From NCBI GenBank assembly GCA_963930775.1, contig OZ005697.1, positions 8,454,292-8,518,291 on the forward strand: DNA of 64,000 nt, in the 5' to 3' direction. This stretch comes from Cliona cf. orientalis. Lineage: Eukaryota; Porifera; Demospongiae; Clionaida; Clionaidae. Below are positions 51,157 to 64,000 of the stretch, one piece after another. Under the pieces are notes generated by a model. It saw only the letters and a program-made list of their open reading frames with translations, made no database searches and was not told the DNA's origin. The translations under genes and the position numbers were made by a program. Position 1 is the stretch's first letter; each line of letters starts with the position of its first letter.

Positions 51157-52875
51157 ATGGAAGATAACTCAAAAGAGGTTGGTAGTGAAAGTGAGTCCAA
51201 TTCTGGATCAATGCAAGAGATTCTTCAGCTAAGCAACAGATCTACTTTTGCTAGAAACGGGATGAATATGAATTTCAAACCTTCTTATCGAATACGAAAA
51301 CTAAAAAATAAAGGAGCTCTTCTGGTATTGGTTTGGAACTGCCTGGTGATGAGTGCTTTTCACTATCTTGCTACCTATCTTACTATGTTTCATCCAACTA
51401 CGTATAATCCTTACAGCATTATATGGGGACTCACTCTGCCCATAGCAGGCTGGCTGGCTGATGTTTATCTTACAAGGTACAAAGTAATACGCTGGAGTAT
51501 CTTGATCATGTGGATAGCCTCTGTGCTGGTAGTAGCAAGCTCTGTACTGTCACAGTTACCAGTAGTTGAACACTATTACCATAATAGCACTAAGAAGTAC
51601 GTAACAATGTTGCTGCTTATTGTAATGTCTCTCGGCTTTGGAGGCTACCAAGCCAATGTCGTCCTCTTTGGAATTGATCAACTTCAAGATGCTTCTACAG
51701 ATGAAATTACATCCTTCATAAGCTGGTATGTATCCACATACTTCAGTAGTGGGTTAGTCATCAAATTCATATATATATGCCTAGGAGAAGAATACAATAG
51801 TTTGCTACCAGAGTTCCTAGTTTGTATTTGTCTTACTATTTTGATTGTACTGACACTGTTTTGTGACCGAATTTTTCTGAAAGAACCAATAACACAAAAC
51901 CCTTTTCAGTTAATCTACAAAGTCATCAAGTACGCCATCAAAACTAAACATCCAAGATGTCGAAGTGCTTTCACTTACTGTGAAGATGACCTTCCTTCTC
52001 GTATTGACTTTGGAAAACGTAAATATGGAGGACCATTCACAACAGAGCAGGTGGAAGATGTCAAGTCATTTATAAGAATACTTGTTTTTATTTTCATCAC
52101 TACACCAATGGCAAGTGGAATGTTATCATTAAACCTTTTAGAGTACCAACTTACCATAACTCATGAAGATGACAACTATGACACATCATTATTTCACTTC
52201 GACAGGTTCCATGATAGCAGCTGGATAATACAAATAACTACAGGGCTAAGTTTTTATTTCAGTGGCACAATCCTGATAATCCTATATGAGTTTATTTTCT
52301 ACCCTCTGCTGCGAAATCACATACCGTACATGCAAAATTATCAGTGGAAAATGGCAGTTGGAATACTTTCTCAAATAGCTAGAATCATTGCTCTTACGAC
52401 TATTGACTTAATAGCTCGTCACAGTTATATCAAGCACAACAATGCAACCATCCAATGCATATTCATGGAACAAAGTGGAATCCTCAGCTCTAGCTTTAAC
52501 ATGCAGTGGATGATCTTAGTGGAACTGCTCAGTTCCATCTCATTAATCACTTCAGTCACGGGTGCATTTGAATTCATCTGTTCTCAAAGCCCTTACTCAA
52601 TGAGAGGACTTCTATTCGGTGCTGCACACTGTAGTGTAGTGCTCTACTATACAGTGGGATATGGAATAATGCAGGCATTTACTAAGCAGTCAACGTCAGT
52701 AGCATGGGGCACAGAAATCATCAGTTGTGAGTTATGGTACTTATTTTTGATACTCATCATCCTGATACTGAATAGCATAATGGTCTGCATACTTTCAAAG
52801 TGGTACAAGAATAGAAAGAGGGAAGATGTTTTACCGAACGAACAAGTTTTTGCCGAGAGATACTATACTAGCTAG
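51157..52875 (+). CDS. POT/SLC15-like transporter, intact (copy 12, plus strand)
   Basis: 572 residues. It starts MEDNSKEVGSESESN, like the minus-strand array, and ends RYYTS. It is the only plus-strand member, separated from the array by the SMYD-like and RTEL1 genes. All family features are present (about 12 helices, WLADVYLTRYK loop, FGIDQLQDAS, WYVSTYFSSGLV, GGPFTTEQVEDVK). Distinctive substitutions include TPMASGMLSLNLLEYQL and AAHCSVVLYYTVGYG. The relic of the receptor-like gene converges on its 3' end, so the transporter/receptor pair was also present here in inverted orientation. Confidence 0.87.
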   Translation: MEDNSKEVGSESESNSGSMQEILQLSNRSTFARNGMNMNFKPSYRIRKLKNKGALLVLVWNCLVMSAFHYLATYLTMFHPTTYNPYSIIWGLTLPIAGWLADVYLTRYKVIRWSILIMWIASVLVVASSVLSQLPVVEHYYHNSTKKYVTMLLLIVMSLGFGGYQANVVLFGIDQLQDASTDEITSFISWYVSTYFSSGLVIKFIYICLGEEYNSLLPEFLVCICLTILIVLTLFCDRIFLKEPITQNPFQLIYKVIKYAIKTKHPRCRSAFTYCEDDLPSRIDFGKRKYGGPFTTEQVEDVKSFIRILVFIFITTPMASGMLSLNLLEYQLTITHEDDNYDTSLFHFDRFHDSSWIIQITTGLSFYFSGTILIILYEFIFYPLLRNHIPYMQNYQWKMAVGILSQIARIIALTTIDLIARHSYIKHNNATIQCIFMEQSGILSSSFNMQWMILVELLSSISLITSVTGAFEFICSQSPYSMRGLLFGAAHCSVVLYYTVGYGIMQAFTKQSTSVAWGTEIISCELWYLFLILIILILNSIMVCILSKWYKNRKREDVLPNEQVFAERYYTS

Positions 52876-53976: not shown

Positions 53977-54600
53977 ATGGCTGCTACTACTATGATTTTA
54001 TTTGCTGTCTTCATTGGTATTGTCCATGGTGATAGTACCTGCAAAATTGCTCCATCATTCAGTAATATTGAAATCTTAAGCAAATACATCGACGAAAGAA
54101 TCAATGCTACAGTTGCTTCCAGGGTAGTGGAGCTAACTGCAGCTACAGAAGATAGATTCAATGCCACAATCGATGAAAGAATTGCAACGGCCATAAATAC
54201 CACTGTCAGTGCTATTAGTTCTGAGTCAGCAACGTGGACACCCGTGGCTAAGACTCCTATTAGTCCAGGAGGACTTAATTTCCAAAACGCCACTACTTAT
54301 ACCTTTCAAATCCCCGATGTCATTCCCCTTGCAGCAAGGGAATTTATGGTCTATGGCATAGTGAAATGTGGAGGCGCTCATTTCCAAGAAGTTGGTGATA
54401 TCATATTTTACGTGAGGCACAATGGGTTGCGATTTGAAAAGTTTCTACACATGCATTCATATCGCTATCAGGAAGCTTGGAACACCAACTCAGACAACAT
54501 GTGGTTCCCAATGCCTGCTGATAGACTCTTCCACGTGGAGATAACTGTGGCCATCCCCGGAAACTGCCGTACTCTCTTCTTTGCTACTGGATACCGTTGA
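53977..54600 (+). CDS. Small secreted coiled-coil protein, type 1 C-terminal domain
   Basis: 207 residues, one exon. The signal peptide is about 1-18 (MAATTMILFAVFIGIVHG). A predicted helical stalk (about 27-80) has the family motif FSNIEILSKYIDERINAT and regularly spaced hydrophobics. The C-terminal domain (about 95-207) is rich in beta-forming residues (TYTFQIPDVIPL, EFMVYGIVKCGGAHF, DNMWFPMPADRLFHVEITV), with two cysteines and an end at GYR. The layout, stalk plus small beta domain, resembles secreted oligomeric lectin- or C1q-like proteins, but I cannot assign a family. The paralogue at 57320 is close. The start is fixed by the signal peptide and its conservation. Confidence 0.8.
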   Translation: MAATTMILFAVFIGIVHGDSTCKIAPSFSNIEILSKYIDERINATVASRVVELTAATEDRFNATIDERIATAINTTVSAISSESATWTPVAKTPISPGGLNFQNATTYTFQIPDVIPLAAREFMVYGIVKCGGAHFQEVGDIIFYVRHNGLRFEKFLHMHSYRYQEAWNTNSDNMWFPMPADRLFHVEITVAIPGNCRTLFFATGYR

Positions 54601-54985
54601 CTCATTAGAATTCCATTTTGTGCATGTTTACATGAATAATGGCTTGATTAATATAGTTTTTTATAGAATAAATTGCATTCCCCATGCATGCACCTTGATT
54701 TTAATTTTAGTTGCTACTATCATGGCATGATCATTATTGTCTTTTTATTTTGACTTGTAAGCTGTGTCTGATAAAACTTTCAAGTTGTCTTTTCGCACAT
54801 CGAAGGCAAAGGAAGTTTCATAGACTGATGTGACAGCATTTCTTGCCTTGAGAATCATAACTTATCTTGATCAATCATACATGCATGCAATACCATGCAT
54901 ACATAATAATTATTGTATTCAAAGAAAAATCTGGTCACATATCTCGTACTATAATTATGTACCCTCTAATCGTAAATAAACTATG
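54601..54985. other. 3' flank of the secreted gene
   Basis: Duplicated with the gene. ATTGCATTCCCCATGCATGC at about 54672 also occurs near 55966 and 58120. AATAAA-type signals lie at 54665-54670. Nothing coding. Confidence 0.5.
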
Positions 54986-55295
54986 CAAGGGCGCCCGCAC
55001 CATATACGCACAGTACGCACGTGCGTACCATTCTCACCACAGTAATCTGAGTTTATACATCTATCTGTTGGAAATAGTATAATTTTGAGCGTATTTCAGA
55101 CCTTTACTGGGCTTTAGGATCAGAAATAAGCTCAAATTTCACAACAGAATGATTGTCTCACCGTTCTTGCTGCTCGATCTACGCAGTGCGAGGTCAATAA
55201 TGGGCGTGGTCAACGTATCCGAAAAAAAATTTCAGCGCGCTTCGCGCGCAATCATATCATGCTTACCTATTCAGAAAATTCTGCGGGCGCCCTTG
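54986..55295. mobile_element. 310-bp MITE with 5-bp TSD, CAAGGGCGCCCGC termini
   Basis: Perfect inverted ends CAAGGGCGCCCGCA. The flanks are CTATG at 54981-54985 and 55296-55300. The paralogous sequence near 60024 (TAAATAAACTATGTAGCAT) shows the empty site. Inside is a GCGCGCTTCGCGCGC palindrome. It is non-coding. The end sequence and 5-bp duplication suggest a hAT relative. Confidence 0.88.
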
Positions 55296-55394
55296 CTATG
55301 TAACATTATACATGCATGTTACGACACAAATGCGATCTAACGCAAATGATCTATCAACAATTAGAAAAATTCAACAGGGAAAAAAAAAATCAAA

Positions 55395-55467
55395 GTGTAC
55401 GGCAAGATTTGAACCCGTTCTATTCCGTCCCATACATAAGAGCCCAACCACTCGGCCACGTACCACC
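55395..55467 (-). ncRNA. tRNA-like (tRNA-derived) sequence
   Basis: On the minus strand: GGTGGTACGTGGCCGAGTGG, with a class II-type A box (TGGCCGAGTGGTTGGGC). A B box follows (GGTTCAAATC) and, about 10 bp past the end, a run of T, as in a Pol III terminator. The acceptor stem pairs poorly and no convincing anticodon stem or long variable arm forms. It is more likely a decayed tRNA-Leu/Ser or a tRNA-derived SINE head than a working tRNA gene. Confidence 0.5.
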
Positions 55468-55502
55468 ATTGTTGTTGTTGGCAGCCATTATTTCAACTAT
55501 TT

Positions 55503-55815
55503 GCTATTAGTTCTGAGTCAGCAATGTGGACACCTGTGGCTAAGACTCCTATTGGTCCAGGAGGACTTGCAATTGGTCTCTGAAACGCCACTACTTTTAA
55601 CTTTCAAATTCCCGATGTCATTCCCCTTGCAGCAAGGGAATTTATGGTCTATGGCATAGTGAAATGTGGAACAGCTCATTTCCAAGAAGTTGGTGATATC
55701 AAATTTTATGTGGTGTACAATGGGTTGCGATTTGAAAAGTTTCTACACATGCATTCATATAGCTATCAGGAAGCTTGGAACACCAACTCACTTCTTTACT
55801 ACTGGATATCGCTGA
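55503..55815 (+). pseudogene. Truncated copy of the secreted type 1 gene
   Basis: Matches the C-terminal domain of the genes at 53977 and 57320 (from GCTATTAGTTCTGAGTCAGC). It lacks the signal peptide and stalk. It has a frameshift near 55575 and an internal deletion of about 90 bp after ACACCAACTCA, joining directly to the last codons (CTTCTTTACTACTGGATATC). Non-functional. Confidence 0.9.
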
Positions 55816-56134
55816 GATTTGCCTATTGAATACAGCTACCTATTTGAACCTGAACAATGTCTATTCTTAACTAATACTGCATAATTACTTTGCTTAAAAT
55901 TACATTTTGTGTATTTTAATGGCTTAGCTTGATGATAATTTTTGTTCACATATTAAAGATTAAATTGCATTCCCCATGCATGCACCTTGATTTTAATTTT
56001 AGTTGCCATTATCGCAGCATGATCATAGTAGTCTACGTACAATTATGTTTTTAGATACATTATCAAAAGCATAAAATTAATACCATACTGCATTATTATA
56101 AGAGCTCTGATTTTGTACTGTTGCAGAGGTACAG

Positions 56135-56760
56135 TTATGGCAGGCGCAGAATCTCTCTCGGCCCCTTAATAATTTATAACTTCAGATGCCACAATGATTA
56201 AGAGCTGGTGGTAGCAGATACACCAGGACTGCTTCAAAATCTGATACATACGCTTGGTCAAACATACTACAGCCTGTGACTCCAATTCCGTATATTATTG
56301 CTATGGATTGAGTGTTGCTAAAGATGTGGAAATGATTGCCAGCATCGGATGCTTGGATAAAGGCCTTTCCAACTGGAAGCTGTCCTCTTCAAAGGTGAAC
56401 AACTGGTATTCCAGATTGACAAAAGTATTGCCTCCTGAATGGCTGGAAATAGTTGGGACGATAGGCCAGACAGGGTTTCATCTAGTGACAAACATTTGGC
56501 CCAGGGGTGGAAGCGCGATAAATGAGTTGGATGTATTTAGCAGTTCCTTGGGACGTATTTTTAGGAGAATTTCTTTAATTCCTCCAGATTGTCTCGGGTA
56601 ATTTTTGATCAAAAACAAATGTTAATGGTTTGATTTGGTGACTTATAATTAATGTGATATTATGATTTAATTAAAGTCAAATTCTTAGGGAGGAAAGCTA
56701 GGGAGTTTGGGGGAGAAGCTTTCCCCCTGTTTCCCACTGTATGAAACTCTGCCAGAACAT
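56135..56760 (-). pseudogene. Decayed exon 2 of the secreted type 2 family, with MITE
   Basis: On the minus strand, 56470 to about 56140 matches the second exon of the gene at 60623-62157 (AGGACAGCTTCC, CATCCGATGCTGGCAATC, GTCACAGGCTGTAGTATG, ending in CTCTTAATCATTGTGGCATC). It carries frameshifts and is interrupted at 56470/56752 by a MITE of the 4779 family. No first exon is nearby. Confidence 0.85.
56471..56751. mobile_element. 281-bp MITE, second member of the 5-bp-TSD family
   Basis: Ends CAGGGTTTCATCTAG and, on the other strand at the right, CAGAGTTTCATAC. The flanking duplication is CCAGA (56466-56470 and 56752-56756). The interior matches the element at 4779-5081 in reverse orientation (TTAGGAGAATTTCTTTAATTCCTCCAGA, TAATTTTTGATCAAAAAC) but without the long G/C runs. 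Confidence 0.9.
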
Positions 56761-57319
56761 TGATGGATAAGCATGCAATATAGGTATGATATCATGCATA
56801 GTTACTCATTTTTGGATGTGTAAATGGGTGAATAGGTAACATAATAATATTACTGTTGCAAATGCCTTTCAAATGTGACTATAAAATCATTTAGGTAGCT
56901 ATCATTCAATCATTAGAACAGTATCCATTTCATCTTTTGAAGTTCTCTGTATGTAGCTACTGAATGTTTATGCACGCATCTATCCATTTCTGTTGCCACT
57001 TTTAAAAGTTGGTACAGACTATTGGCATGTCTGTTATATACACAAAGCCCTTGGACAAGGACGGTTTACGTTGCCATAAATCCCTGGCTCCGTGCTATAA
57101 TAACAACATTAACATCAACTTTAGTCAATCAAGCATGCACACAACACATACCATGTAGTCACCAGTAAGTCTGAGATCGTTATTGCTCAGGCACTGGCAC
57201 GTTTATGGATCGAGTGATACGTAAAATGTTGTCACTATAGCCATCATTAGATGCAATTGCACTAACAGCTATAAATTTGGTCATGATTATCAGTTTATTG
57301 ATACCCATAATATACAATC
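56761..57319. other. 5' flank of the second secreted type 1 gene
   Basis: No gene. 57120-57319 repeats the upstream block of 53977 (TTAGTCAATCAAGCATGCAC near 57120 and GATCGAGTGATACGTAAAATG near 57208). CTATAAAT at 57270 is a possible TATA element. Confidence 0.5.
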
Positions 57320-57952
57320 ATGGCTGCTACTACTGTGATTTTCTTTGCTGTCTTCATTGGTATCATCCATGGTGATAGTACCTGCAAAATTGCTCCTTGC
57401 AAGTGTTCATTCAATAATGTTGAAATCTTCAGCAAATACATTGATGAAAGAATCAATGCTACATTTGCTGCCTATGTAGCGGAGCTAACTGCAGCTACAG
57501 AAGACGGATTCAATATCACAATCGATGAAAAAATTGCAACGGCCATAAATACCACAGTCAGTGCTATTAGTTCTGAGTCAGCAACGTGGACACCTGTGGC
57601 TAAGACTCCTATTAGTCCTGCAGAAGGACTTACTCTCGAAAATGCAACTACTTTTAACTTTCAAATCCCTGATATCATTCCCCTTGCAGCAAGGGAATTT
57701 ATGGTCTATGGCATAGTAAAATGTGGAACAGCTCATCTTCAAAGAGCTGGTGATATCATATTATACGTGATGCACAATGGCTTGCAATTTGAAAAGTTTC
57801 TATACATGCACTCATATGAACAGGCAGCTTGGAATACCAACTCAGATAACATGTGGTTCCCAATGCCTGCTGATAGACTCTTGCACGTAGAGATAACCGT
57901 GGCCATCCCCGGAACTTGCCGTGCTCTCTTCTCTACTATTGGATACCGTTGA
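57320..57952 (+). CDS. Small secreted coiled-coil protein, type 1, second copy
   Basis: 210 residues, one exon, closely related to the gene at 53977. Signal peptide MAATTVIFFAVFIGIIHG, the stalk with FNNVEIFSKYIDERINAT, and a C-terminal domain with REFMVYGIVKCGTAH and the ending ALFSTIGYR. It has one extra cysteine pair position near the stalk start (IAPCKCSFNN against IAPSFSN), which could allow an additional disulfide or inter-chain bond. No lesions. Likely secreted and oligomeric through the stalk; the role is unknown. Confidence 0.8.
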   Translation: MAATTVIFFAVFIGIIHGDSTCKIAPCKCSFNNVEIFSKYIDERINATFAAYVAELTAATEDGFNITIDEKIATAINTTVSAISSESATWTPVAKTPISPAEGLTLENATTFNFQIPDIIPLAAREFMVYGIVKCGTAHLQRAGDIILYVMHNGLQFEKFLYMHSYEQAAWNTNSDNMWFPMPADRLLHVEITVAIPGTCRALFSTIGYR

Positions 57953-59041
57953 CTCATTTGAGAATTGTCTATTAATAATAATTATAGCTACCAATTTGAA
58001 CCTGAACAATAGCTAATACTGCATTAATATCTTTGCTTAAAGTTACATTTTGTGTTTATTTACATGAATAATGCCTTAGCTTGATGGTTACTTAAATTAG
58101 TTCACATAAGGATTAAATTGCATTCCCCATGCATACACCTTGATTTAATTTTAGTTGCTACTATCACGGCATGCTCGTTATTGTAATGTCTTTCTATCTT
58201 GACTTGCAATTGTAAGCTGTATCTGATAATTTTTTTGCGCACCAAAGGCAAAGGAAGTTTCATAGACTGATGTGACAGCAATTCTGCTTTGAGAATCATA
58301 TTAACCAATCTTGCATGCAATACCATGCATGCATAATTATTGTAACTTTAGAAAAATCTGCATGGTCACGTATCTTGTACTATGTATCTGCATGCATATA
58401 TGTATATACAAACTATATTGATTCGTATGATTCCAACTTGCTTTTAAGTAATATGGCTTTCGTGTTATTATATACATAATAATTATTATGACTGCACGTC
58501 TATTTTTTTTACAGTGTATATGACTTGTAAACTGTATCTCATAAAATGTTCAAGTTGTCTTTTCACAATGTCATATCAAAATTTCATAGTAACTGTTTTA
58601 GTCTGATAGCTAAGTTTCTTTAGCTACATGCAGTCATGATCACACATTCATGCGAGTCTAAAACATTTACATAGTCAATCAAGTATTCTTGCATGCAATA
58701 TATATATATACTAGCCTTGTATCCAGGCCATTCCATGTTTATCAACGTTGCACGCAACACATGGGATGGCCTGGATACGAGGCTAACATAATATTATAAT
58801 AAATTCACTTAACATTATTATTGGTCACCAATAAGTCTGAGGTTGTTATTGTTGGGTAGCAGGCCATGCCTCTCCCTTTGCTCATGCACTGGCACGTGAT
58901 ACGGACATTAATGATTGTTGTAATAATTATATATTATCATTACTGTAACAAAGGAAATTGCAACAGAATAACACTTACTATAACAGTTATAAATTTGGTT
59001 GTAATTGCCAATTTATTGATACCCGTATAATCATGCATAAT
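57953..59041. other. Spacer after the second secreted gene
   Basis: It repeats the 3' flank seen after 54600 (ATTGCATTCCCCATGCATAC near 58120, GCACCAAAGGCAAAGGAAG near 58240). A hairpin repeat lies at 58712-58785. From about 58800 it repeats the 5' flank ahead of 53977 and 57320 (AATAAGTCTGAGGTTGTTATTG), leading to the relic at 59042. Confidence 0.55.
58712..58785. repeat. 74-bp hairpin repeat, TAGCCTYGTNYCCAGGCC family
   Basis: Arms TAGCCTTGTATCCAGGCC and complement, with a loop containing AACGTTGCACGCAAC. It is the same family as 49600-49676, which shares the loop motif GTTGCACG. Confidence 0.8.
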
Positions 59042-59224
59042 ATGGCTGGCATTATTATGACTTTATTTGCTGTTTTCATCACTAGACTGAGTGCCCATGA
59101 CACTAGTGATCTTCATAGAGCTAGCGATGTCATATCAGAATCTAGGTATGTACCTCCTCCACTCTGTTGCGACATGCAATTGATTCTAATTAACTGCCAC
59201 TATTATCACAAAATGATATCATAG
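59042..59224 (+). pseudogene. Signal-peptide relic of a secreted type 1 gene
   Basis: MAGIIMTLFAVFITRLSAHD aligns with the signal peptide of the genes at 53977 and 57320 and sits behind the same upstream flank (CAGTTTATTGATACCC...). The stalk and C-terminal domain are missing; the frame ends at 59224. A truncated copy, unless it is a first exon of an unrecognised spliced gene. Confidence 0.6.
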
Positions 59225-59399
59225 TTATTGTAATCTACACTTTAGGTAATAATTTTATTATGTGGATCTGTAGGTGTATACATTAAATAATATGCCATCA
59301 TGCATGTTAAAAATTTTGAAAAATGTTAGAACTTGTACCGTTGCAGATCATGCTAGCTATACAGTATTGCAGATACACAATCTCTCTCGTCCCTTATTT

Positions 59400-59745
59400 T
59401 GTAATTAATTTTCAAAGGCCACACTGATTAAGAGCTGGTGGTAGCAAGCATACCACAATTGGGGTAAGTACTTCAAAATCTGAAATACATGCTCGATCAA
59501 ACCGTTTAACGTACTACTGTAACAGCCTGTGACTCCAAACTTTATCCATACGTTGCTATGGATTGAGTGTTGCTAAAGATATGGATCCAAAATCGTTTCC
59601 ACCATCAGATACTTGCTGCTACCAAGGTAATGATTGTAGCATTGATTCTTTCATTGATGAATTGGCTTAAAACTTCAGAATCTATGCTACTGAGTATACA
59701 CTCACTAGCACTGGCATAACTATAGGTTCATTATGAAGGCAACAA
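59400..59745 (-). pseudogene. Decayed secreted type 2 gene, exon 2 joined to exon 1 remnants
   Basis: On the minus strand, 59745-59640 resembles the signal peptide/stalk exon of the gene at 60623-62157 (CAGTGCTAGTGAGTGTATAC, CCAATTCATCAATGAAAGAATC). It is followed without the usual intron by exon 2-like sequence (59600-59400: GTCACAGGCTGT, TACCACCAGCTCTTAATCAG). Many frameshifts. Non-functional. Confidence 0.75.
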
Positions 59746-60622
59746 GGATATTTACAACTGGTATGAAGAATATTCATCCATCTAGTTGCTATAGATACAT
59801 ACTCATGCAATATTATAGAGAGGGGATGAAGCGAGCTAATGATCAAAGCAAATCACAGGATATCACCTCCTTTGAATGCAGTTTGTTCACCATGGTTCCT
59901 AACTTAGTAAATATTTGCTTTGCCTATTGCTGCGTGGTAGTCTTTCTTGTGACGTTTGATGTACTATGTATAATACTAGACTCTTGGAGACAATGATCAA
60001 TGTCAGTACCCTCTAGTTCTAAATAAACTATGTAGCATAATACTGTCATGCACATTGCAAACTAATAACATTATTATTATAATAATTATAGCCTCATCCT
60101 CAGGCTTTTCAACGTAAAATAATATTCAGTGTGTCATAATATTGAAGCTGAGAATGCCATGGGCCTGGGATGATAAGGCCGCTATAGTAGACTAATACCT
60201 GGTTGGCTTAAAAGCTTAGCAACTGATACAATGCATCAAGAGCATTAATTATAGCACTGCAGGACTGCTGCTATTTATGGAAGATCAGAAGTGCAATTTA
60301 TTCCGATTCCGCATCCCGCGCCCGCATTCCACATAATATAGCTAGTTAGTATATATAGTTCACTGGCTAGTTTGCGGGATGAGGGATGCGGAATCAAACG
60401 AAATTGCCCTTCTCGGCTTCCGTAGCTATTCTTTTACCAACTGTGGCATTGAGAGCACTGACAGTTACAGTAAATACATTATCAAAATAACATCATGCAT
60501 GCAATAGTTCAGGGAAAATTAATGTTACAACGTTAACCTATTAGCTATAGCTAAATTAAATGTTGCAAAACTACATACAGTTAATAATATGAAAGATTCG
60601 CAATCTCTCTCGTCCCTTAATA
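59746..60622. other. Spacer of the type 2 family
   Basis: No gene. The segment around 59885-60060 (CACCATGGTTCCTAACTTAG, TGCCTATTGCTGCGTGGTA) is repeated at 62948-63130 and partly at 62300. 60130-60180 is repeated at 63262-63310. These repeats show tandem duplication of a unit of about 3.1 kb covering the type 2 gene. Confidence 0.6.
60287..60413. repeat. Inverted-repeat element, copy 1
   Basis: AGAAGTGCAATTTATTCCGA with GCATCCCGC, and the complement GCGGGATGAGGGATGCGGAA with AAATTGCCCTTCT about 60 bp later. A fold-back MITE. A second, more decayed copy lies at 63416-63523 within the duplicated segment. Confidence 0.75.
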
Positions 60623-62157
60623 TTAAATTAAAATTCGGATGCCACATTGATCAAGAGCTGGAGGTAGCAGGCACACCAGGGTTACTTCAAAAGTTGGAAC
60701 ACATGCTTGATCAAACGTACTACAGCCTGTGACTCCAAATCCATATGTTGCAATGTTCTGAGAACTGCTGAAGATGCGGAAATGATTGCCGATATCGGAT
60801 GCTTGGATGAATGCCTTTCCAAATTGGAAGCTGTCCTCTTCACGGGTAAACAACTGGCAGGCTGGACCTATCTCATTACCTCGATAGCACGGAATGGCAG
60901 CTTCTAGATTGATGAAGATAATAGCTGTATTGCCTCCTGAATTGCTGGAGTAATTGGGACGATAGGCCAGAACACTATTGTCGGAAGTGTAATCTTCTGA
61001 AATATTTGTAATTGTCAGTGTAGATATGTCGGCCCCCCCTGCTTGTGTTGAGGAGTCTATCGACTTCAGCCTGACTGTTCTTGGCTCGGTTCGACTTAAA
61101 CCAATGTACAGCATTTTTATCACTGTTTATATATGTAATGAAAGGCAAGATATTATTATTATTGTGGTACAGCTATTAAATTGGGACAAGCTTGAGCGAG
61201 CACACATTAATCAGTACTACGAGAAAACTGGTACTGCTGTACTTTTACGTCATCCACGTGTTCGCTAGCTCACTCAAGAAAAGTTTCTACAGTAACAAGG
61301 CAATATATTATAGTCTGGGTGCTAGGGCTACTAATTTCTGTAGCTAATGCTTCAAGTCCAAGCTAGCTATTGTTGCCCACTGAGACAATGTAGCCACATG
61401 CGGGCCAAAGCTCATGACATACTGGGAATGAAAATAGTAGCTACACTACTGTTATTAATTGTTTCTTGATCTTTATTATTAGCGTCAATAGATTGTGCTC
61501 AGTGAATGACGATAGCTATGATAGCTAGTACTTGTACATATAATTTGGATTGAAGATAGTAGAGGGGGCATCATTTTACTAAGTCTACGCTGTGAGCGAA
61601 GGCTCACTCCCTCAATGGTTTACATCACCCTTGTTAGTATATTATGTATTAACTGCAAAATTAGCCTCTTTCCCATGTTGCCATGGTTTAATGAAATGAT
61701 ATTGAAAAGCTGAAAGTATAATAGGCTTTCATGGATATGAGATAACACACTTACCTGGCTGGCCTAAAAGCTTAGAAATTGATACATCATGAGTATCAAC
61801 TGTAGTTCCAACTGTTGTTATTCTCTCATCAACTGTGGCATTGAGAACACTAACTGTCGTGTTGACTGCTGTTATTTTTTCGTCAACTGTGGCATTGAGA
61901 ACACTTACTGTCATGTTGACTGCTGCTATTTTATGACTGAGAGTGTTAAGTCTAGCATTGATACTTTCAGCTATACTTTTATCAAATGTTGTAGTGAATT
62001 CTGCTACCATGGTACTGAATGTAGCATTGATTCTTTCGTCAATCAATTGGCTTAAGATCTCAATGTTACTGAGTGAACATTCGCTGGCATAGCTAGGTAC
62101 ATTAGCAATAATTATGAAGGCAGCAAAGATAGACATAACTGGGATGAAGTTTGCCAT
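60623..62157 (-). CDS. Secreted coiled-coil protein, type 2 C-terminal domain (two exons)
   Basis: Proposed gene of 284 residues: exon 1 62157-61755 and exon 2 61074-60623. The donor is CCAG|GTAAGTG and the acceptor GAACAG|TC, and the 855 coding bases keep frame. Exon 1 gives a signal peptide (MANFIPVMSIFAAFIII...) and a stalk with LSNIEILSQLIDERINAT. Three near-identical heptad-rich repeats follow (VNTTVSVLNATVDEKIT and variants). Exon 2 gives a different domain from the type 1 genes, with GNTAIIFINLEAA, ASDIGNHFRIF, YGFGVTGCSTFDQACV and six cysteines. The shared N-terminus shows common origin; the C-terminal module differs. The upstream Met at 61123 is inside the intron and not used. Function unknown. 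Confidence 0.7.
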
Positions 62158-62469: not shown

Positions 62470-62786
62470 AGTACCTGGTTGGCTTATAAGATTAGAAATA
62501 GATACATCATGAGCATCAGCTCTAGCACTGATTGCTGCTATTTTTTCATCAACTGTGGTCCTGAGACAACTGACTGTTGCTATTTTATTATCAATTATGG
62601 CACTGAGAGTTTTAAGTTTAGCGTACTGACTCTATAGCATTGATTCTTTTGTCGGTGAATTGGCTTAAGATTTCGATGTTACTGCAAGAGTATACACTCG
62701 CTAGAACTGGCATAACTAGGTTCGTTAGCAATAATAATTATTATGAAGGCAAAAAGGATAGTCATAACTGGGATTAAGTTTGTCAT
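62470..62786 (-). pseudogene. Decayed exon 1 of a second type 2 gene
   Basis: The start at 62786 (MTNLIPVMTILFAFIIII) matches the signal peptide of the 62157 gene. A frameshift follows at the stalk start: the family sequence SNIEILSQ continues in another frame after ECILLQ-stop. The three-repeat stalk is degraded, with a donor-like CCAG|GTAC near 62475. It probably belonged with a copy of exon 2 that is no longer present between here and 62157. Confidence 0.8.
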
Positions 62787-63701: not shown

Positions 63702-64000
63702 TCAAATGCCACAATGTTCACGAGCTGGTGGTAGTAGGCACACCAGGGCTACTTCAAAATCTGAAACACATGCTCGATCAAATGTACTACAGCCTGTGAC
63801 ACCAAATCCATATGTTGCAACGAAATAACTATTGGCAAAGATACGGAAATGATTGCCAATATCAGATGCTTGTATGAATGGATGGAAGCTGCCCTCTTCA
63901 AAGGTGAAAAACTGGCAGGCTGGAGCTCTCCGCTCATGTCGATATCGATAGCACGGAATTACTCTTTCCAGATTTACAAAGAGAATGGCTGTATTGCCTC
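63702..64000 (-). CDS. Secreted type 2 protein, exon 2, cut by the right window edge
   Basis: The stop is at 63702-63704. Reading leftward-coded from 64000 the frame is open and matches the end of the 60623 gene: PACQFFTFEEGSFH, IQASDIGNHFRIF, YGFGVTGCSTFDRACV, then LVCLLPP and a shorter end. The cysteines are conserved. The first exon lies outside the window. Likely a functional gene as far as can be seen. Confidence 0.75.
   Translation of the reverse strand, partial: GNTAILFVNLERVIPCYRYRHERRAPACQFFTFEEGSFHPFIQASDIGNHFRIFANSYFVATYGFGVTGCSTFDRACVSDFEVALVCLLPPAREHCGI

Follow-up and report, generated by a model that had tools for sequence, protein, structure and literature searches.

Introduction

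With reference to the described systems, the proteins that come closest to those treated here are the fibres of the MAT superfamily in Bdellovibrio, in which unrelated tips are carried on a common fibre, as is described for Bd2133 and Bd1334 (PMC10769870). In this study, a stretch of 64,000 nucleotides from the sponge Cliona cf. orientalis (contig OZ005697.1, positions 8,454,292 to 8,518,291; hereafter the window), forming part of a 217-Mb assembly (GCA_963930775.1), was investigated for two plus-strand genes of one kind (type 1) and a minus-strand gene of another kind (type 2), each encoding a secreted-type protein made of a stalk and a C-terminal domain, here called the tip. We observed that the stalk is a genome-wide module found beside three unrelated tips, that the exchange of tips on it by exon re-pairing is strongly supported by the genomic sequence, and that the type 1 tip is homologous to the fibre tip of Bd2133. 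The genes probably belong to a large family in which a signal peptide and a short stalk module are combined with one exchangeable tip, serving multivalent recognition or adhesion and diversified by exon exchange.

The window proteins thus resemble MAT fibres in having exchanged tips on a common stalk. However, MAT fibres are typically about 1000 amino acids (aa) long, several with beta-helical regions, and have an N-terminal domain of their own, whereas the type 1 protein of gene a has 207 aa and a short predicted helical stalk; the candidate identity of the window type 1 protein as a MAT fibre was rejected because its size and N-terminal part differ, while its membership in the tip family stays. 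Proteins of Competibacteraceae and others (L067-L087) are similar in that they end in a tip from this family, preceded by a region of helical appearance, and differ in their bacterial-lipoprotein-like N-terminus. C1q and the collectins are comparable as secreted-type proteins with a stalk and a C-terminal beta head, and a trimer would be common to both. Nevertheless, Pfam identified neither type 1 nor type 2 as C1q, TNF or C-type lectin, as both type 1 proteins gave no family at E<=10 and the type 2 protein gave only weak matches below the cut-off, none of them to these three; the type 1 model matched the C1q head weakly in Foldseek (E 6.6e-3, versus 1.8e-10 for Bd2133).

A common stalk beside three unrelated tips

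When the whole genome was searched in six frames with the type 2 stalk exon as query, three type 1 stalks came up with 45-53% identity (E 1.7e-4 to 4.5e-6), and a single BLASTP comparison of a type 1 stalk with the type 2 stalk gave 3e-13; judged by these comparisons, the stalk similarity between the types is not chance. The initial annotation had assigned a common signal peptide and a common stalk to both types, of which the stalk stands and the signal peptides show a loose likeness only. The window proteins do begin with a hydrophobic N-terminus, and the putative secretion signal was read from the appearance of the sequence.

The stalk exon of 57 residues consists of a hydrophobic N-terminus, a CRACNCQFNNVQVLDKMI-type motif and a short helix, and it has 80 matches in the genome at E<=0.1. 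A listed tip was detected at most 3 kb downstream on the same strand in 71 of these 80, namely type 1 in 5, type 2 in 26 and a third domain in 40, versus 0.08 expected if the 80 were placed randomly, a comparison in which duplicate arrays are not independent. Profile comparison showed no relation between the C-terminal domains of type 1 and type 2 (hhalign probability 0.1%), and their models match different things; the earlier statement of their unrelatedness thus withstood, as far as tested, the refuting condition named with it, namely a common fold and homology of the two. The third domain, which is cysteine-rich and was recorded at L100-L108, is unrelated by profile to both. At L109 (G000:C4:1595000-1597750, minus strand), an orphan stalk exon precedes a frame in which Pfam recognized a Death domain (E 1.3e-9).

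Stalk-tip junctions and re-pairing

In the type 2 gene of the window, exon 1 (61755..62157, minus strand) starts with the ATG at 62157, encodes the hydrophobic N-terminus and a long stalk with NAT/NTT repeats, and ends in phase 1 at G^GTAAG. It is separated from exon 2 (60623..61122, minus), which encodes a beta-rich tip with no significant fold match, by a GT-AG intron of 632 nt in phase 1 (61123..61754, minus) that lies exactly between stalk and tip as initially annotated; the two exons joined encode a protein of 300 aa. Phase-1 splice sites were located at the stalk-tip junction for all three tip kinds, the phases being read from genomic sequence rather than from transcripts. All 9 type 2 stalk exons examined have a phase-1 GT as the first one behind the stalk, and in all 9 type 2 tips the closest preceding AG is likewise in phase 1. 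At the type 1 loci L014 and L016 (C9:8591k and 8593k), which are tandem neighbours, the frame of the tip differs from that of the stalk, so that an intron at the junction is required, and phase-1 sites are present at either side of it; at L005 (C9:8576k) the frame is open throughout, and a phase-1 intron is possible and not required. As for the third tip, both sides are in phase 1 at L100 and L101, and also at L103 provided that an AG that overlaps the first codon serves as the acceptor. On this genomic reading, type 2 is not alone in having an intron in front of the tip. Since an intron is present there in two relatives of type 1 and with the other kinds of tip, the intronless junction of the two window type 1 genes may be derived, resulting from a later fusion.

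The stalk tree (43 rows, 58 columns) placed the window type 1 and type 2 stalks in one clade of 15 rows (support 100/99), without the type 1 stalks of C9:8576k, 8591k and 8593k, and the tip labels take 9 changes on it against a minimum of 2. A single clade was rejected in the approximately unbiased (AU) test for the type 1 stalks as well as for the type 2 stalks (p 0.0028 for each). The tip tree, unlike the stalk tree, placed the tip of C9:8576k together with those of the window (98/94). Because the stalk trees reject one origin for the type 1 stalks and for the type 2 stalks, and the tip tree disagrees with them, stalks and tips have been re-paired in evolution. The module replacement proposed in the initial annotation is thus borne out by the 80 matches, the three tips, the phase-1 junctions and the discordant trees, and it reaches wider than had been claimed.

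The type 1 tip and its relatives

Type 1 gene a (53977..54600, plus strand) is an intact single exon of 207 aa with its ATG at 53977, comprising the hydrophobic N-terminus, a helical stalk at residues 31-82 of the predicted model, and a Bd2133-type tip at about residues 83-207. Type 1 gene b (57320..57952, plus; ATG at 57320) is likewise an intact single exon, of 210 aa, with the same architecture and 83% identity to gene a. Checking of the open reading frames and of the two-exon structure showed that these two genes and the type 2 gene had been annotated with the right coordinates. The initial annotation had recognized neither C-terminal domain; this remains so for type 2, while the type 1 tip is the Bd2133 fibre-tip domain. 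It is homologous over the whole tip, in sequence and in fold, to the tip of Bd2133 of Bdellovibrio bacteriovorus (PDB 8ok3, 8ond), with 26% identity over 119 residues and a root-mean-square deviation of 2.0; the gene a tip (54223..54597, plus) aligned through its residues 85-207 with Bd2133 911-1031. The models of the window proteins are single-chain predictions. The best-conserved stretch of the tip among animal and bacterial relatives overlaps the strand around which Bd2133 trimerises, G989-W999, where N994 (28/29), S995 (24/29), D996 (25/29) and W999 (28/29) are identical to Bd2133 in the non-redundant rows, and residues 989-993, the first half of the strand, are less conserved.

Tip sequence is contained in 20 of the 25 genome matches of type 1, and the remaining 5 are stalk only. 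Prokaryotic tip loci were confirmed in 21 cases, 12 of which are titled Competibacteraceae, Competibacter or Contendobacter. Apart from the partial L067, L070, L076 and L087, these proteins read by eye as lipoproteins in which a helical region follows the N-terminus and the tip closes the chain; their best segments are 28-45% identical, and a bacterial tip protein was present in 3 of 369 sampled genomes of the class. In the tip tree of 55 rows, 13 bacterial rows fall on one side of a branch (100/100), and Bd2133 sits on a long branch of unsure placement. No report of a Bd2133-type tip in an animal was found in the literature searched, which did not cover supplementary files.

The same tip was also detected in proteins of another build. 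At L015, L017, L018 and L020 (G000:C13:547-554 kb), a RING finger, a zf-TRAF match and a coiled-coil-like stretch are followed by a C-terminal Bd2133-type tip; the RING was recognized by Pfam in the two proteins scanned and by eye in the other two, and the zf-TRAF matches of the two scanned proteins are below the Pfam cut-off. TRAF proteins, which share the RING, the zf-TRAF-like part and the coiled-coil-like stretch, carry MATH where these RING-tip proteins have the Bd2133-type tip, and MATH was absent by Pfam from the two of the four that were scanned. A RING-tip query retrieved seven public proteins (P0116-P0122), one with an identical tip, and a precomputed zf-TRAF label is present on 2 of the 7. 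Additionally, an array of short secreted-type single-frame proteins at G000:C2:3721-3735 kb and C9:8217 kb (L006, L008-L012) combines the type 1 tip with an N-terminus of another kind, one that contains cysteine.

The type 2 tip and the collagen-tail domain

The type 2 tip has 69 matches in the genome and 70 relatives in public sequence, with five cysteines invariant among 33 aligned sequences. Its model is beta-rich and confident (pLDDT 84, pTM 0.83); neither sequence nor fold comparison with PDB gave a significant match, nor did viral models, and Pfam gave nothing above cut-off. L034 (G000:C2:8993 kb, minus strand) looks, by eye, like a type II membrane version: ahead of a type 2 tip, its open frame has a hydrophobic segment in its interior and a long stretch resembling a coiled coil.

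The third domain lies directly after Gly-X-Y repeats in the same open frame at at least five loci (C11:986k, C14:7625k, C14:2093k, C18:6520k and C18:6514k), a lower bound, as 150 of 1006 collagen candidates were scored. For this reason it is a collagen tail. The collagens that carry it are presumably those named spongin short-chain collagen. Such short collagens, which end in a non-collagenous domain, resemble the stalk family in that this domain is the third tip on the same stalk exon; they differ in that the first 1600 nt read at each of the nine stalk and third-tip loci L100-L108 showed no run of at least five Gly-X-Y.

Other features of the window

Degraded copies of both types are dispersed among the intact genes. 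A broken type 1 copy, mostly tip, with one in-frame stop is located at 55497..55793 (plus; G000:C9:8509788-8510084), a type 2 tip fragment at 56185..56379 (minus; G000:C9:8510476-8510670), and a broken type 2 stalk exon with four in-frame stops at 62473..62721 (minus; G000:C9:8516764-8517012). A second type 2 exon 2 (63705..64000, minus) continues past the window end and has a type 2 stalk exon upstream at G000:C9:8519403-8519798. The open frame at 58949-59224 (plus) has an N-terminus resembling the type 1 signal peptide (MAGIIMTLFAVFI...) without stalk or tip, and is perhaps a broken copy. Moreover, a POT/PTR2 family transporter (Pfam E 2.9e-12) is encoded at 51157-52872 (plus).

Discussion

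In the recognition or adhesion family that we consider probable, each polypeptide would trimerise through its helix and its tip, three tips would form one multivalent head, and this head would bind surface molecules, glycans or others, on microbes, on the matrix or on other cells. The range of what gets bound would be diversified by exon exchange together with gene duplication, and the protein would act in the manner of a soluble MAT fibre or of an opsonin of the collectin or C1q type. The lectin-like or immune-type role advanced in the initial annotation is likewise one that we infer. The oligomerising stalk proposed with it is plausible, as the predicted helix of gene a and the trimeric state of the homologous Bd2133 tip (PMC10769870) speak for it. 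Several results weigh against this picture. The hydrophobic periodicity of the window stalks is not significant, with 448, 577 and 126 of 1000 shuffles equally good, and the junction phase is ambiguous in 2 of 4 type 1 loci, L007 among them, and on at least one side in 3 of 6 third-tip loci (L105, L106, L108). The peptide pocket of Bd2133 is poorly conserved, N956, N1020 and Y985 being identical in 14%, 31% and 48% of 29 rows, and the ligand therefore need not equal that of Bd2133; moreover, glycan-array binding is reported for Bd2439 only (PMC10769870). The ratio of nonsynonymous to synonymous substitution (dN/dS) over whole sequences is 0.38-0.66, indicating some constraint, yet the tip alone of the type 1 pair 53977 / C9:8525k has dN 0.094 and dS 0.093, with no constraint signal. 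Again, as the third tip is a collagen tail, some family members may be matrix parts rather than immune proteins.

This last point leads to the rival that the tips contact matrix rather than microbes, the stalk family being a branch of the collagen-tailed matrix proteins that exchanged its triple helix for a short helical stalk, as would accord with the collagen-tail domain in 40 of the 71 tip-adjacent matches and its position directly after Gly-X-Y at five loci. We consider it unlikely, since the type 1 tip is homologous to the fibre tip of a bacterial predator, the stalk loci lack Gly-X-Y runs over the stretch given above, and arrays with broken copies and elevated dN/dS better fit a fast-evolving recognition family. 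A role in self/non-self or cell-cell recognition within the animal, as in allorecognition or aggregation, is less probable still: a multigene, diversified, secreted-type family would suit it, as would L034 if it is a type II membrane protein, but Pfam assigned neither type 1 protein to a family, and its matches for type 2 were weak and sub-threshold.

Convergence, whereby low-complexity helices produced the stalk likeness and tips were never exchanged, is largely refuted and very improbable; the stalks are indeed short and compositionally biased, and the stalk tree is based on few columns, but the cross-type E value of 4.5e-6 in a genome-wide search, the tips beside 71 of 80 matches, the phase-1 junctions and the AU tests all oppose it. 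Bacterial contamination or symbiont DNA, suggested by the bacterial origin of the closest solved homologue, has a negligible probability, as the genes lie on a 9.9-Mb contig, many diverged copies are spread across several contigs, and GT-AG introns occur in the type 2 gene and several relatives. Beyond the recognition family that we prefer, a broader scheme is possible and rather doubtful, in which an early animal lineage would have its own MAT-like system of exon-shuffled trimeric secreted sensors on a standard stalk, with one tip held in common with bacterial predators through horizontal transfer and the same tip wired intracellularly to RING/TRAF-like ubiquitin ligases, thus being used outside and inside the cell.

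In summary, a family of animal genes now shows the exchange of tips on a common stalk, a strategy known for Bdellovibrio MAT fibres, and one tip fold occurs in both. A direct question on intracellular sensing is raised by the RING/TRAF-like proteins that carry this tip, and structure determination, the fold of type 2 and a ligand screen are within reach. The tip exchange makes it testable how a sponge, living among and feeding on bacteria, diversifies its recognition proteins by swapping, duplicating and re-pairing exons.

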